A stretch of DNA of 64,000 nucleotides from Phenylobacterium sp. GTDB lineage: Bacteria > Pseudomonadota > Alphaproteobacteria > Caulobacterales > Caulobacteraceae. Below, piece after piece: positions 17,048 to 23,965 of this stretch. A program made the position numbers and the translations under genes. Location: NCBI GenBank assembly GCA_017991675.1, contig JAGOQB010000005.1, positions 62,001-126,000 of the forward strand. The letters run 5' to 3'. Position 1 is the first letter of the stretch, and every line of letters starts with the position of its first letter. Under the pieces are notes generated by a model, which ran no database searches, had not been told where the DNA came from, and saw only the letters and a list, made by a program, of their open reading frames with translations.

Positions 17048-17147
17048 GCCGATGAACGCCGGATGAACAGCGGTCTCAAGGGCAGTTCAAGGCGGCGCTT
17101 CTAGCGTCCGATCCTGCGCTGGGCGTCCTATGAAAGGGACACGCGAC

Positions 17148-17543
17148 ATGAAGATCCTGATCGCCGCGCTCGCCGGAGGCGCGATGCTGCTGGGCGGAAC
17201 GCTCGCCGCGGCGAAACCGGCCCCGAGCCCCGCGCCGGCCGCGCGCCCGCTCGGCGTCGACGCCCGTATTCCGTTCGCCGCCAGCACCGGCATCCGCAAC
17301 TTCCAGGCCGACGGCGACAATGCCCTGTGGATCGAGGGCCAGCGCGGCGAGTGGTATCGCGCCGAGCTGTTCGGCCCCTGCATCGGCCTCGACCATGCGA
17401 TGAAGGTCGGCTTCATCCCCCGCGGGACCAGCTCGCTCGACCGCTTCGGCCAGGTGCTGGTTGACGGCTCCAAGTGCCAGATCTCCAGCCTGGTGACCTC
17501 GACCCCGCCGCCGGCCAAGGTCAAGAAGGCCAAGGCCTCCTAA
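17148..17543 (+). CDS. Exported DUF6491-family protein
   Basis: The product has 131 residues. ATG 17148 follows AAAGGGA and opens on a signal peptide (MKILIAALAGGAMLLGGTLAAA). The mature part has the family pattern: a strand with IRNFQADGDNALWIEGQRGEWYRAELFG ahead of a conserved Cys (GPCIGL) and a second Cys (SKCQISSL), probably a disulfide. It ends in a Lys/Pro tail. It is a small periplasmic protein of unknown function, and its stop overlaps that of the convergent CHAT gene by 4 bp. Confidence 0.75.
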   Translation: MKILIAALAGGAMLLGGTLAAAKPAPSPAPAARPLGVDARIPFAASTGIRNFQADGDNALWIEGQRGEWYRAELFGPCIGLDHAMKVGFIPRGTSSLDRFGQVLVDGSKCQISSLVTSTPPPAKVKKAKAS

Positions 17544-20500
17544 GGCGGCGACAGCCGCATCACGACCGCCTGGCCGCCCAGCGCGCCGCCCAGCAGCGCC
17601 TCGCCGGGGCGGCTGGCGTCGATGTCCGACAGATAGAGGTTCGAGCCTGAGTCCAGCAGCTTGGGCGCCGACACCGCCCCGTTGGGCCCGAGCGTCAGCA
17701 GCATCGCGCCGACATGGGTCTTCATCTCGCTGGGGGCATAGGGATCAGGCCGGGCAAGCGGCCCTGTGCGGTAGTCGACCTGGCTCAGCTTGGCCGCGGC
17801 GATCAGCGCGCCGCCGTCCGTCATCGCGCCCAACGCCCGCACTTCCGACCAGCCCAGGCTGTCGTCGCGATAGACCAGCCGGGACTGCAGACTTGCATCC
17901 AGCGCCATCACGCCTGCCTTCAGCTCGGCCTCGCAGCTCGCCATGAAGCCGCCGCCCAGCAACACCTGGCCGTCCCGCGCCAGGGCCGTCGGCGCGGTCC
18001 AGCCGGTCAGCTGCTGCGAGGCGACCAGCGCGCCGCTCATCCGGTCCCGCAGCTCGACCCAGGTGACCGGCACGCCCATGCAGGGCGCCAGGTCATAGTC
18101 GTCCTCGCCCAGCGCCCGCCGCGGGGCCGGCGGGTGGCGCACGGTGTAGGTGACCAGGACGCGCTCGCCGAGCGAGGTCAGGGTGGCGTCCTCGATGGCG
18201 ACCCCCTGCGGCGGCGTGGCTGTGAACAGCAGCCGCGGCGGCTGCGCGCCGTCGATCAGCATCACGCGCAGTTGGTCGGCGACGTCCCGGCCGGCGGCCC
18301 GCGCGCGTCCGGCGCTGTCGGCGATGGCGACCAGGGCCTGATCTCGGCCAAGCGTCACGCCTGTCGCGGCGAGGGAATCCATGCCTTCGGGCCGGTCCCC
18401 GCGCCAGGTCGCCCGTACGGCGCCGCTGGCCTTGTCCAGCGTCTCGATGACGGGGGCCGTGCGCCCGTCGGCGCCGGCTTGCCCGCCGCCGACCAGGACT
18501 GCGGGGCCCATCTCGACCATCAGCCAGGTCGGGGCCGACAGCTGCATCTCGCGCCGCCAGCTGCCGCTCAGCGCCGTCCCGGCCTTCGAACCGGCGTCCG
18601 AGAACCGGGTCAGCACCTGTTCGCCTACGCGCTGCAGCGCGACGACCTCGCCCTTGGCCCCGGAGATCGGGTCCACCGTAAGCTTGCCGGCGCTTGGGGC
18701 CGCCGGCGGCCGCGCCCCGTCGCCCAGTACGATCAGCGGCGCCCAGAAGCGCGGGTGCAGGTAGGCCCGCGAGGGCGGCGCGGCCAGGAACGTCCGCTGC
18801 GCCTGCGCCAACGCCAGGGCCGGACTCTCGCCATGCTCGGTGCGCAGGGTCGCGAAGGTGGTCGCCACCACCTCCTTGGTGGTCTCCGAATCCACCGCCC
18901 ACAGCGAGCCCAGGGTCGAGGGCACGCCCGCCACCGCAAACGCCGAGGCCAGGGCCGGCAGCTCGCCGGCCATCTGCGCGACGTCGTAATTGGCGGTGTT
19001 GCAGGCCGACAGCGCCACGAACCGCGCCCCCAGGTTCAGGTCGGCGATCTCCGAGGCGGTCAGCAGCCCGTCGTCCAGCGGATCGGCCGAGGACACCGGC
19101 GTCAGCGCCAGGGCCGGCTCGCTCAGCCCCTCGATCTCGTCGCGGATCAGGCCGTGGGTCGCGAACGACAGGTATCGGTAGGAGCCCAGCAGCTGGCCGC
19201 GCACGCCGCGCTCGGTCGCCGCGTTCTGGACCAGCAGCTTGCTCGTAGCGAACCCTTTGGCTGAACGCTCCAGCTCGTCCTTGGTCTCCGGCAGCGGCGC
19301 CAGGGCGGCTAGGCCCGCGCTGCGCGAGCCCTTGAGCAGCATCCTGGCGCGATCCTCGCCCTGGTCGGTCGCCCCGCTCAGCACCGGGTCGCCGACGCCC
19401 AGGAAGTCGAAGTCCGAGGCCGGCGCCAGCGCGCCGGAGCGCGCCGCCAGGATCGCGCCCGGCGTTCCCGCATAGCTGACCGCATGGCGGCGCACGAGCC
19501 AGTCGGCCTGCGCCAGGTCGTAGCCTTCACCCAGCTTCGGCGGCGCCTGCGCCAGCAGCACCGACAGCGGCAACGGGGTGATCGAGGTGTCGGCCAGCCA
19601 CAGCAGGTGGTCGCCGGCCTTCACGCAGCCCTCGAACGGCGCGATCAGCAGCTTGTGCATCCGCACCGCCGCGGCCGCAGGGAACTGGGCGTCCAGCTCG
19701 TCCGAGGGCGCGTGGCCGGCGGTCAGCGCCGCCTGCAGGATCTTGATGTCCAGCGTCGCCTGCCGCAGGTCGGCTGGCGCGACCAGCCGTATCGCCCGGT
19801 CCTGGCGCACGCACATATAGGCCATGCCGCCCGGAATCATGGCCACGCTCAGCGCCGCCTCGCCGGGACGCAGCGCCGCCTGGAAGCGCTTCAGGTCGAC
19901 CAGGCCCGATCCGGCGGCCGGCCCGAGCGAGCGGTCGATCTCGTCCAGCCGGACGGCGAAATCGCGCAGCGTCCCGCGGGCGCGGACGTCGTGGCTGAGC
20001 AGCGTGTCATACGCGGGCGCCTGGGCGTGGCTCGCCAGTTTGGCGATCTCTCCCCGCTCATAGGCGTCCCGCCGCGCCCGCAGCCGCAGACCTTGATGGA
20101 TCGACCGGCGCTGCAGCGCGTCCTTGGCCTGGGACAGCGCCACCAGGGCGTCGGCGTCGATGTTCGCCTGCACCCGCCCGGCCAGCTGAAAGAGGACGAA
20201 GTTCGTCTCGTCCGCCTCAGGCCCGCCACGGTCGCCCTGGGCGAGGGCGAACGAAATCAGGACCTGCTCGATCGCCGCGGGCCGGCGCGAGGCGCCGACG
20301 CCCAGGGCCGGCGCCCGCTTGGCGGCGGCAGCGATCAGTCGGCCGGTCTGCGCCAGACCCGCCTGCCGCTCGGCCCCCGGCGCCAGCGCCAGGGCGCGTC
20401 CGGCGGTGCGGTAGATCGCGGCCGGCTCGGCGTTGGCCCCTGCGCCCGCCTCAAAGGGCGCGGCCTGCGCCAGGGCCCTGGCGACGACTGGGTCGGGGCG

Positions 20501-21532
20501 CTGCTCGATCGCCGCGACCAGGGCCCGCGCCGCCAGATAGGTGGTTTCCTCGAAATCGGCCGGCGTTCGTCCCGCGCGCTCATAGAGCTTGCCGTAGGGG
20601 TGGGCGTCGATCGCTTCGCGCGCGCAGTCCGGCTTGAGCAGGGCCGTGCAGGCGACCGCCTTGCGGGTCAGGGCCTGGGCGGTCACGTAGGCGCGGCTGT
20701 CGTCGTCCAGCTCGATGGCGCCGGCGGCGGCGACGGCCAGGTCCAGCACCGGCAGGGCGGCGGCGAACTGGCCCTGCTCCAGCAGCAGTTCGGCCTCGAT
20801 CAGCCGGTACACCATCGCATCGACGCTGAGCGGCGGCAGCGAGGCGGCGATGAACCCCCCGCTGGCCCGGTAGACGCCATAGGCGCGGTCGCTCTGGCCC
20901 AGCGCCCGCAGGCTGTCGATGGCGTCCGATAGCGCCCAGGCGACCAGGAAGGCGTCGTCCTGCGGATTCTTCAGCGACGCGATCAGCGACAGGGTCTTGT
21001 CGACGCTCACGCGGGCGCCGGCGTAGTCCTCCTGTTCGAGCTGGATGCTCGAGGCCAGCGAGAGGCGGCGCAGGTAAAGGCCAGGGTTGGCGGCGTTTTC
21101 CTGTCCCCAGAGCTCGCCCTCCAGGATCTTCGCGGTCACCGGCGCGGACCCGTAGGTGAACTTGCCGTAGTCCAGGAAGTAGCCGGTGCGCCGGATGTCC
21201 TCGCGCCGCGCAAGCTCGTTCGCCGCGGCCGGAGCGGGCAGGGCGATGTAGTTCGGAACCTGCTCCAGGACGCAGTCGCGATCCCGGCCGTGGATGCAGA
21301 TCTCCAGCAGCGTGGCGGTCGCCGCCCGGCGGGCGGCGGGGGCCAGGTCCTTGCCGGCCAGCTGGCGTTCCAGCTGCTGGCGCGCGGTCTGGGCCTTGCC
21401 CTGGAAGTACAGGCCCCACGGCGAGGGCTCAGCCGCCACTGCCGGTTGCGAGCTTAGCAACAAGGCGCTTGCGAGCGCGCTCCACGCCGCTAGGCTCCGC
21501 CTGGGCGAAGTCTTCGGGGGAATAGGCGCCAT
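17540..21532 (-). CDS. Exported CHAT-domain (caspase-like) protein with helical repeats and C-terminal beta domain
   Basis: The 1330-residue protein likely has cysteine-protease activity outside the cytoplasm. ATG 21532 has GGAG 8 nt upstream and opens on a signal peptide (about residues 1-34, ending SSQPAVAAE). Residues about 40-580 are Ala-rich helical repeats of TPR type. The CHAT domain covers about 600-930, with catalytic His793 (FATHGLIRDE) and Cys844 (LSACNTA), and the downstream GSLWAVDSET helix of the family. The last 390 residues are beta-rich with repeated GG-strand motifs, like a propeller. Its start codon shares the CATG at 21530-21533 with the divergent trypsin-like protease gene. 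The targets are unknown; known CHAT proteases act on partner proteins. Confidence 0.88.
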   Translation of the reverse strand: MAPIPPKTSPRRSLAAWSALASALLLSSQPAVAAEPSPWGLYFQGKAQTARQQLERQLAGKDLAPAARRAATATLLEICIHGRDRDCVLEQVPNYIALPAPAAANELARREDIRRTGYFLDYGKFTYGSAPVTAKILEGELWGQENAANPGLYLRRLSLASSIQLEQEDYAGARVSVDKTLSLIASLKNPQDDAFLVAWALSDAIDSLRALGQSDRAYGVYRASGGFIAASLPPLSVDAMVYRLIEAELLLEQGQFAAALPVLDLAVAAAGAIELDDDSRAYVTAQALTRKAVACTALLKPDCAREAIDAHPYGKLYERAGRTPADFEETTYLAARALVAAIEQRPDPVVARALAQAAPFEAGAGANAEPAAIYRTAGRALALAPGAERQAGLAQTGRLIAAAAKRAPALGVGASRRPAAIEQVLISFALAQGDRGGPEADETNFVLFQLAGRVQANIDADALVALSQAKDALQRRSIHQGLRLRARRDAYERGEIAKLASHAQAPAYDTLLSHDVRARGTLRDFAVRLDEIDRSLGPAAGSGLVDLKRFQAALRPGEAALSVAMIPGGMAYMCVRQDRAIRLVAPADLRQATLDIKILQAALTAGHAPSDELDAQFPAAAAVRMHKLLIAPFEGCVKAGDHLLWLADTSITPLPLSVLLAQAPPKLGEGYDLAQADWLVRRHAVSYAGTPGAILAARSGALAPASDFDFLGVGDPVLSGATDQGEDRARMLLKGSRSAGLAALAPLPETKDELERSAKGFATSKLLVQNAATERGVRGQLLGSYRYLSFATHGLIRDEIEGLSEPALALTPVSSADPLDDGLLTASEIADLNLGARFVALSACNTANYDVAQMAGELPALASAFAVAGVPSTLGSLWAVDSETTKEVVATTFATLRTEHGESPALALAQAQRTFLAAPPSRAYLHPRFWAPLIVLGDGARPPAAPSAGKLTVDPISGAKGEVVALQRVGEQVLTRFSDAGSKAGTALSGSWRREMQLSAPTWLMVEMGPAVLVGGGQAGADGRTAPVIETLDKASGAVRATWRGDRPEGMDSLAATGVTLGRDQALVAIADSAGRARAAGRDVADQLRVMLIDGAQPPRLLFTATPPQGVAIEDATLTSLGERVLVTYTVRHPPAPRRALGEDDYDLAPCMGVPVTWVELRDRMSGALVASQQLTGWTAPTALARDGQVLLGGGFMASCEAELKAGVMALDASLQSRLVYRDDSLGWSEVRALGAMTDGGALIAAAKLSQVDYRTGPLARPDPYAPSEMKTHVGAMLLTLGPNGAVSAPKLLDSGSNLYLSDIDASRPGEALLGGALGGQAVVMRLSPP

Positions 21533-21533
21533 G
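21530..21533. promoter_or_regulatory. Shared CATG start of divergent protease genes
   Basis: The same four bases provide ATG for the plus-strand protease (21531-21533) and, on the opposite strand, for the CHAT gene (21532-21530). Each start has a purine-rich ribosome site (GGGGGA on plus, GGAG on minus) lying inside the partner's coding sequence. Promoters must therefore also lie inside the partner gene. Confidence 0.65.
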
Positions 21534-22724
21534 CGGCGGCTCCAAATCTGCGCGGCGGTGGTGGTTCTAGCTTCACCATCATACGGATTAGCGCAATCGG
21601 CGGTAGGCCATGCGGGCGGCGCGATGCCTGCTCCCGGTCCCGACGCGGTCGGCGGCAAGCGTCCGGTGGCGGCCGCCCCGTCGCTGCCCGGCGCGGCCGC
21701 GGCGCGCTATGCGGCGGCCCTGGACGGGGCGGCCGCGCAGCCCCGGCAGGTCACCCGCGGGGCCAAGGACGCCCAGGTCTACCAGGCCGCTGCGCCCTCG
21801 GTGGTGCTGGTGCTGGCCGGCGACGGCTTCGGTTCCGGCGCCCTGATCAGCGCCGACGGCAAGATCGTCACCAACCTCCACGTCGTCGGCGACGCCAAGG
21901 AGGTCGGGGTGGTGTTCAAGCCGGCGGCCGAGGGCGCATCCTTCGGCAAGGCCGATGTCCGCCGCGCCAAGGTGATCCGCCGCGACGAGGTCGCCGACCT
22001 CGCCCTGCTGCAGGTCTCCGAGGTCCCGGCCGGCGCCAAGCCGTTGCCGCTGGCCGCCTCGAGCGCGGTGCAGGTCGGCTCGGACGTCCACGCCATCGGC
22101 CACCCGACCGGCCAGGCCTGGACCTACACCCGCGGCATCGTCAGCCAGGTGCGCAAGGACTACGCCTGGCGCACCGAGATGGGCCTCGACCACAAGGCGA
22201 CGGTCGTGCAGACCCAGACCCCGATCAATCCGGGCAATTCCGGCGGCCCGCTGCTGGACGACAATCTCGAGATCATCGGCATCAACAGCTTCAAGAGCGA
22301 CGGCGAGGGCCTGAACTTCGCAGTCTCCGCCGACGACGTGCGAACCTTCCTGGCTCTCAAGGAGGATCGCCGCGCCACCCGCTCGGCCGGCGCGCGCGCG
22401 GTCTCCGCCGGCGGCGAGTGCGAAGCCGTGGGCCTCAAGGAGTGGGCGGTCAACGACCCGAAGGGGGTCGGCTACCTGATCGATGTCAACTGCGACGGCG
22501 AAGGCGACTTCGTGATGATCGAGCCCGTCAAGAAAAGCGAGCCCTACACCTACCTGTTCGACCACGACGGCGACGGCAAGATCGACGCCGAGATCACCGA
22601 CCTCGGCCGCGACGGGAACTTCGACGAGGCGCTGCTCGACGTCGACGGCGACGGGACCTACGATCTGGTCGGCCAGTTCAAGCCCGGCGAGTCCGACCCC
22701 TACCGCTACGAGCGCATCAAATAG
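21531..22724 (+). CDS. Exported trypsin-like (HtrA/S1C) serine protease with Asp-rich Ca-binding-like tail
   Basis: This 397-residue protein has a signal peptide (MRRLQICAAVVVLASPSYGLAQ) and then a low-complexity linker. The double-beta-barrel protease domain runs from about residue 85 to 285, with a complete triad: His117 (TNLHVVGD), Asp156 (VADLALLQ) and Ser237 (NPGNSGGPL). No PDZ domain follows. Instead, residues about 300-397 hold three or four loops of EF-hand/dockerin style: DVNCDGEGD, DHDGDGKID, DLGRDGNFD and DVDGDGTYD. Ca2+ binding there is inferred from the DxDGDG pattern. Divergent from the CHAT gene, it is likely a periplasmic or surface enzyme acting with it. Confidence 0.88.
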   Translation: MRRLQICAAVVVLASPSYGLAQSAVGHAGGAMPAPGPDAVGGKRPVAAAPSLPGAAAARYAAALDGAAAQPRQVTRGAKDAQVYQAAAPSVVLVLAGDGFGSGALISADGKIVTNLHVVGDAKEVGVVFKPAAEGASFGKADVRRAKVIRRDEVADLALLQVSEVPAGAKPLPLAASSAVQVGSDVHAIGHPTGQAWTYTRGIVSQVRKDYAWRTEMGLDHKATVVQTQTPINPGNSGGPLLDDNLEIIGINSFKSDGEGLNFAVSADDVRTFLALKEDRRATRSAGARAVSAGGECEAVGLKEWAVNDPKGVGYLIDVNCDGEGDFVMIEPVKKSEPYTYLFDHDGDGKIDAEITDLGRDGNFDEALLDVDGDGTYDLVGQFKPGESDPYRYERIK

Positions 22725-23875: not shown

Positions 23876-23965
23876 TGGCGGTGAGAGAGGGATTCGAACC
23901 CTCGATAGGCTTTCACCTATACACGCTTTCCAAGCGTGCGCGATCGACCACTCCGCCACCTCACC
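23876..23965 (-). tRNA. tRNA-Ser(GGA)
   Basis: The 90-nt minus-strand gene runs from GGTGAGG at 23965 to an encoded CCA at 23878-23876. The acceptor stem pairs with TCTCACC, the anticodon stem CACGC/GCGTG encloses loop TTGGAAA with anticodon GGA, a long variable arm (class II, TATAGGTGAAAGCCTA) and the TTCGAAT T-loop follow. It reads UCC and UCU serine codons. It stands alone between the PhyH gene and msrA. Confidence 0.97.

Follow-up and report, generated by a model that had tools for sequence, protein, structure and literature searches.

How can two genes be expressed when their coding sequences begin, on opposite strands, within the same four bases, and what might hold such a pair together? 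The question is raised by a locus in Phenylobacterium sp. (assembly GCA_017991675.1, 3.03 Mb and 70.7% complete), found in a stretch of 64,000 nucleotides (contig JAGOQB010000005.1, positions 62,001 to 126,000) that I will refer to as the window. One of the genes encodes a protein of the caspase superfamily with a CHAT domain, the other a trypsin-family protease resembling HtrA, and both proteins begin with a likely signal peptide. The explanation I favor, with a confidence somewhat above even, is that the pair constitutes a self-contained module of two exported proteases that have interlocked starts, are reciprocally controlled, and act jointly.

A previous reading of the locus, made from the sequence alone, placed both start codons on one CATG, and that is where they lie: the ATG of the trypsin-like gene at 21531-21533 on the forward strand and that of the CHAT gene at 21532-21530 on the reverse strand (Table 1; coordinates are those of the window). 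The arrangement is not peculiar to this genome. Full-type CHAT homologues, defined by an expectation value (E) up to 1e-40, are present in 17 of 101 Phenylobacterium genomes, and trypsins of the family (E up to 1e-24) in the identical 17, and at these thresholds no genome of the genus carries one gene alone. Two further genomes (G108 and G258) have a CHAT match limited to the surroundings of the CHAT domain, and one (G217) has a weak partial match to the trypsin. In all 17 cases the two genes are adjacent and divergent and share a single CATG, at identities to the window's proteins that go as low as 51% (trypsin) and 42% (CHAT). Chance or a mis-called start, considered as sources of the overlap, are ruled out by the presence of the CATG in frame for both genes in every pair; a mis-called start is also argued against by genomes G214 and G239, in which no start codon precedes the CATG in the trypsin frame.

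In 13 of 16 relatives, none of the ten genes flanking the pair in the window was found near it, and in the other three some were (flanks of 1.2 to 9.7 kb were covered); the pair thus persists amid changing surroundings. A shared neighborhood as the reason for the adjacency is unsupported for the same reason. As a separate observation, the CHAT gene of G214 is interrupted (755 residues to the first stop, with matches in two frames or pieces; loci L095 and L109), although its trypsin gene and shared CATG are undamaged. The CHAT gene of G239 leaves its contig after 389 residues. These two, the one interrupted and the other split over contigs, were omitted from the CHAT alignment.

The overlap requires that each promoter be confined to the partner gene, as the sequence-only reading had pointed out, and candidates for the necessary elements were found there. 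When the rows are aligned on the CATG, both of the stretches encoding signal peptides show conserved blocks that read on the opposite strand: CTTG(CG), 17 bases, and TAGGCT on the trypsin side and CTTCCG, 17 bases, and TATGAT on the CHAT side, the spacing in the window being 17 base pairs (bp) for both of the -35/-10-like pairs. CTTG occupies a fixed column in 15 of 17 rows and GCTAGG likewise in 15 (the exceptions being G152, displaced by an indel, and G098 and G232, which differ). TATGAT is kept in 15 of 17, and the -35-like block of CHAT, which reads CTACCG in four genomes, the window's and those of three close relatives, and CTTCCG in most others, conforms to CTNCC in all 17.

The codons that carry these blocks stand out, since codons of the CTA or TCA type are avoided elsewhere in these G+C-rich genes. 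CHAT Leu14 is CTA in 15 of 15 rows, as compared to 32 of 2321 leucines elsewhere, and for Ser17 of the trypsin the codon is TCA in 15 of 17, as compared to 4 of 312 serines elsewhere. They are the strongest outliers among 320 (CHAT) and 155 (trypsin) conserved columns, by P values in which related rows count as independent and which should not be read as probabilities. Codons 14 and 21 of CHAT have A at the third position in 16 of 16 rows, against a background of 4.0%, and the codon for Leu4 of the trypsin is CTC in all 15 rows that have leucine.

Each gene, to judge by this conservation, may have its promoter and its ribosome-binding site within the signal-peptide codons of the other, and it is in that sense that the starts of the genes would be interlocked. 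Transcription might begin about 7 bases past the -10-like blocks, that is, at an estimated 21503 on the forward strand and 21571 on the reverse. If the promoters are real, they face each other, and the messenger RNAs (mRNAs) would be complementary over approximately 69 bases at their 5' ends, with both start codons inside that stretch. The likeliest outcome would be reciprocal control, through collision of polymerases, pairing of the mRNAs, or both, such that the two proteases would be kept low, balanced, or mutually exclusive.

Table 1. Features of the gene pair in the window, with the basis on which each was assigned.
Feature	Position	Strand	Basis
CHAT protein of the caspase superfamily, 1330 residues, likely signal peptide	17540..21532	-	Pfam, alignment
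HtrA-like trypsin-family protease, 397 residues, likely signal peptide	21531..22724	+	Pfam, NCBIfam, alignment
Shared CATG, both ATG starts, 2-base overlap	21530..21533	.	sequence; 17/17 pairs
Candidate -35-like CTTGCG of trypsin gene, within CHAT signal-peptide codons	21468..21473	+	inference
Candidate -10-like TAGGCT (within GCTAGGCT) of trypsin gene; contains rare CTA of CHAT Leu14 (CHAT strand)	21491..21496	+	inference
Candidate Shine-Dalgarno-like GGGGGA of trypsin gene, in CHAT codons	21516..21521	+	inference
Candidate Shine-Dalgarno-like GGAG of CHAT gene, over trypsin Leu4 codon	21540..21543	-	inference
Candidate -10-like TATGAT of CHAT gene, in trypsin signal-peptide codons Ser17 (TCA) and Tyr18	21578..21583	-	inference
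Candidate -35-like CTACCG of CHAT gene, 17 bp from -10-like element	21601..21606	-	inference
CHAT domain, residues 622-938, His793 and Cys844	18719..19669	-	Pfam, alignment
CHAT C-terminal tail (residues 939-1330), a predicted beta-propeller that 3/15 homologues lack	17543..18718	-	model, alignment
Trypsin_2 protease domain, residues 101-251, His117, Asp156 and Ser237	21831..22283	+	Pfam, alignment, structure search
Ca2+-loop region, residues 318-378, where HtrA proteins carry PDZ	22482..22664	+	by eye

Turning to the proteins, the catalytic residues that the sequence-only reading called complete are correctly numbered and are invariant, His793 and Cys844 in all 15 aligned CHAT homologues and His117, Asp156 and Ser237 in all 17 aligned trypsins. 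The domains that contain them are matched at E 1.7e-41 (PF12770, CHAT, 143 bits against a gathering cutoff of 24) and E 7.5e-31 (PF13365, Trypsin_2). Likely signal peptides, such as it described, are seen in the sequences of both partners within the genus and of most partners outside of it; those of the 17 trypsins and 15 CHAT proteins aligned were read by eye as Sec-type, judging by which both proteases appear to be exported. Two other claims hold only in part. The reading saw three or four DxDGDG calcium loops at the end of the protease; by eye, two of four are canonical (residues 344-352 and 370-378), and those at 318-326 and 357-365 are degenerate. The tail of the CHAT protein, described as beta-rich, is predicted to form a beta-propeller (predicted local distance difference test score, pLDDT, 86; predicted template modeling score, pTM, 0.86; the structures it matches are beta-propellers), but it is absent from 3 of 15 homologues (G136, G221 and G244). 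At the other end, the N-terminus of the window's CHAT protein has no match in Pfam; TPRs are detected in partners from SAR11.

The model of the trypsin-like protein (mean pLDDT 81, pTM 0.57) has Deg8, DegP, Deg1, HtrA and DegS as its top Foldseek matches, best over the protease domain. Its C-terminus contains the Ca2+-loop repeats and an invariant pair of cysteines (Cys297 and Cys321), and PDZ is not among the 8 Pfam families listed for the protein at E up to 1. The module would work outside the cytoplasm, with loop repeats in place of the PDZ domain of its HtrA-like member. Judging from domain content, Ca2+ could control the protease, and the likeliest relation between the two proteins would be that they act on each other or share a substrate, perhaps as a proteolytic cascade in which one activates the other in the envelope.

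Does the partnership extend beyond Phenylobacterium? The sample used to address this question was drawn with two peptide patterns and is biased toward relatives that keep them. A profile-guided scan provided 80 loci, 15 from the genus, 52 with family members from outside it (E better than 1e-45), and 13 generic (L166-L178, for which the family model gives E above 1e-45), the last excluded from the tally of 52. The cultured strain Phenylobacterium deserti YIM 73061 is a carrier by locus L106. A CHAT or C14 caspase gene was found in 33 of the 52 loci, within 1.5 kb in 29. With the same two models and flanks of 1.5 kb, neither was found beside any of 23 generic trypsin-like genes, control loci that represent the window's own family only. 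The candidate explanation that generic HtrA genes would do equally well was rejected on this comparison (0 of 23 versus 29 of 52). The partners are CHAT proteins in Bradyrhizobium, Rhodocyclaceae, SAR11 and Scalindua and C14 caspases in SAR11 and others, so that the one type is interchanged with the other; L131, from a Nitrospirae assembly, encodes CHAT, DUF4384 and trypsin as a single fused protein, and L143 has a partial CHAT at the end of its contig (E 0.0088). Beyond Phenylobacterium, 18 of 26 CHAT proteins have a simple His/Cys dyad motif (eight are truncated or lack the motif), and caspase His and Cys motifs are present in 11 of 11 C14 partners examined. A hydrophobic N-terminal stretch (best 11-residue mean at least 2) occurs in 30 of 36 partner proteins and in 18 of the 19 trypsins listed. 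On comparative evidence, the partnership of this trypsin family with caspase-superfamily proteases is well supported.

The family is rare and patchy. An even draw of 385 genomes of the class contained it in 3 (E 1e-50), including the window's own, and the other two loci (L206 and L207) have short flanks in which no partner is seen. A search for CHAT at the level of the order gave 18 of 299 genomes at E 1e-40, with matches over most of the profile in G000 and G006 and over the CHAT domain plus some preceding residues in the rest.

Overlapping starts are found outside the genus as well. The genes overlap head-to-head by 29 bp in Bradyrhizobium (L116) and by 38-41 bp in SAR11 (L143, L146 and L149; L147 likewise, with some choice of start), and they can share a CATG in L118 and L113 and overlap by 41 bp in L122, the choice of start being uncertain in all three. 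On a tree of 50 rows, a subset of the loci, the firm overlaps need three changes, all forced by well-supported branches, which implies that the overlap either has been retained across deep divergence or has more than one origin; counting L113, L118 and L122 as overlaps gives five changes, four of them forced. A loose search for promoters in ten pairs outside the genus found no convincing shared motif, except that SAR11 L146 has TATGAT at the corresponding Ser-Tyr-Ala codons of its signal peptide, perhaps by coincidence. The sequence-only reading would have been refuted by conservation of the genes without adjacency or by loss of the signal peptides in most homologues; adjacency and, as far as sequence tells, signal peptides both turn out in its favor. 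I offer it as a tentative proposal, somewhat short of probable, that this is an undescribed module of an exported caspase-like and a trypsin-like protease, with face-to-face promoters in the partners' signal-peptide codons, mRNAs mutually antisense at their 5' ends, and an interlock deeply kept or recurrent in Phenylobacterium, Bradyrhizobium and SAR11.

A number of observations weigh against these proposals. A strict sigma-70 scan of 21350-21750 gave no sites. GCTAGGCT fits the -10 consensus of Caulobacter RpoD (GCtANAWC, as given in PMC8144410) in its first half only. The -35-like block of CHAT, CTACCG in the window, also encodes a Pro-Glu common to most relatives, so part of its conservation may be at the level of protein. 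As for the partnership, besides the narrow source of the controls, many of the 33 loci are close kin from SAR11 and do not amount to 33 independent cases. By the two models, 19 of the 52 family loci have no partner, and while many of these are at contig ends, L117, L120, L132, L140 and L141 have more than 5 kb on both sides. The fused proteins of L131 and L133 have no obvious signal peptide. Finally, the divergent pairs of Rhodocyclaceae (L126 and L129) are separated by gaps of roughly 170-190 bp, and in several lineages the genes stand in tandem, converge or are fused, so that an overlap is not universally required.

The empty sigma-70 scan also lends itself to a different account of the rare codons, in which they are slow codons that aid secretion or translation, or sites for a regulator, and the true promoters are at other places within the partner gene. 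Ser17 and Tyr18 are near the likely cleavage site and invariant as amino acids, in keeping with such a role, but the account fits poorly with opposite-strand blocks that are conserved across codon boundaries and accompanied on each side by a second block 17 bp away, and I judge it unlikely. The genes might instead be functionally unrelated and merely locked, neither able to be lost or moved without damage to the other. The overlap does fix the pair within Phenylobacterium, but the tandem, convergent and fused CHAT or C14 partners outside the genus are subject to no such lock, leaving this account very little likelihood.

If the joint action of two proteases is accepted, their task might still be a familiar one. 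The HtrA fold found by structure search and the best NCBIfam model, degP_htrA_DO (E 1.9e-34), would suit an ordinary DegP/DegQ-like protease of envelope quality control with an accessory CHAT protein, but the score for that model is 119.3 bits against a cutoff of 416.2, the protein is below the cutoff in each of the 12 NCBIfam models listed, it lacks a PDZ match, and its patchy occurrence (17 of 101 genomes of the genus, 3 of 385 of the class) contrasts with that of any trypsin-like match, found in 199 of 199 genomes of the family. I regard this task as quite improbable. Patchiness and changing neighborhoods would suit a module for defense, self-killing or competition that acts at the envelope in response to a trigger outside the cytoplasm, and caspase, CHAT and trypsin-like domains are described as bacterial immune or conflict effectors in PMC8195603, PMC10907252 and PMC12799240. 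The five neighbors of the window's pair that were scanned (by Pfam: DUF6491, PhyH, serine dehydratase, MsrA and DUF599) include no defense gene and no gene for an NTPase hub or adaptor (STAND, MoxR-vWA), and PADLOC-DB 2023 offers no model that matches the CHAT protein and matches the trypsin-like protein only with the generic protease stretches of the models RT-Protease_XI, PDC-M35A, HamA1 and Avs1b. The comparison with cytosolic conflict systems drawn in the sequence-only reading is, given these results, an analogy, and a role in defense, self-killing or competition seems to me somewhat unlikely.

Some neighboring features deserve record. In the window, a small DUF6491 gene (17130-17543) with a signal-peptide-like start heads toward the CHAT gene and overlaps its stop by 4 bases; among the 16 relatives such a gene is near the pair in G098, G123 and G193 only. 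An Rfam scan matched a tRNA and nothing else. A gene for tRNA-Ser(GGA) is at 23876-23965, about 1.2 kb beyond the end of the trypsin gene, and is also present in the stretches from G123 and G193. A set of genes in SAR11 (L151, 3580-11332; L158; L160) combines the trypsin with CHAT proteins (PDZ-CHAT in L151), a PrsW-type protease (L151), and a roughly 500-residue protein for which Pfam gives no gathering-level match. L139 (4999-7701) has, about 3 kb from the trypsin gene, a C14 caspase in fusion with SH3 and FGE-sulfatase domains. No caspase-type gene was found near the trypsins of a Reyranella-like clade (L120, L128 and L132, with L128 near a contig end), and L119 (107-1403) has, beside a family trypsin with no caspase-type neighbor, a PP2C phosphatase together with a protein that looks like FHA.

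If each switch does sit inside the partner gene, the interlock could couple the production of two enzymes that are potentially dangerous. About 140 bases hold, besides both start codons, the likely signal peptides of the two proteins and apparently also a promoter for each gene. The results also point to a partnership of exported caspase-superfamily and trypsin-like proteases across several phyla, including the abundant SAR11 bacteria. Neither an exported CHAT/trypsin pair nor two divergent protease genes sharing a start were recognized among the papers listed by searches of a library that lacks most subscription titles.

Head-to-head coding overlap is itself known from prokaryotes. In PMC2174442, divergent overlaps are the rarest kind (331 of 14,958 in 58 species, with Caulobacter noted as enriched), and since the present one is kept in 17 of 17 pairs, it offers a clean natural case for reciprocal interference between promoters and 5' leaders. 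In PMC2478687, 75 divergent overlaps longer than 60 bp were examined and all judged to be annotation errors; those considered here are short (2-41 bp), and all 17 orthologous pairs keep theirs. The excludon, as presented in PMC7154746, consists of opposite-strand neighbors with 5'-overlapping transcripts and possible mutual repression. The present genes resemble it in being opposite-strand neighbors with putative 5'-overlapping transcripts and differ in that the coding starts overlap and the putative promoters are inside the partners' signal-peptide codons. With HtrA, DegP and DegS the protease shares a trypsin fold and a His-Asp-Ser triad, and to judge by its sequence it may be exported as they are, but it has a C-terminus of Ca2+ loops with no PDZ match and is below the NCBIfam cutoffs listed. 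TPR-CHAT proteases (Csx29/Craspase) have a repeat-rich N-terminus and a CHAT domain with a His/Cys dyad. The CHAT proteins described here have the dyad, and the SAR11 partners the TPRs, but they differ in having a likely signal peptide and, in most members, a predicted beta-propeller tail. The Hachiman, AVAST and canu antiphage systems are cytosolic. In these, according to PMC12799240, trypsin-like or caspase-family proteases are paired with nucleases and activate the partner enzyme in bacterial immunity. The likeness to the present pair lies in a small gene set built around a protease whose type alternates between trypsin-like and caspase-family; the difference is that the partner there is an antiphage nuclease, whereas the present pair consists of two proteases, each with a likely signal peptide.

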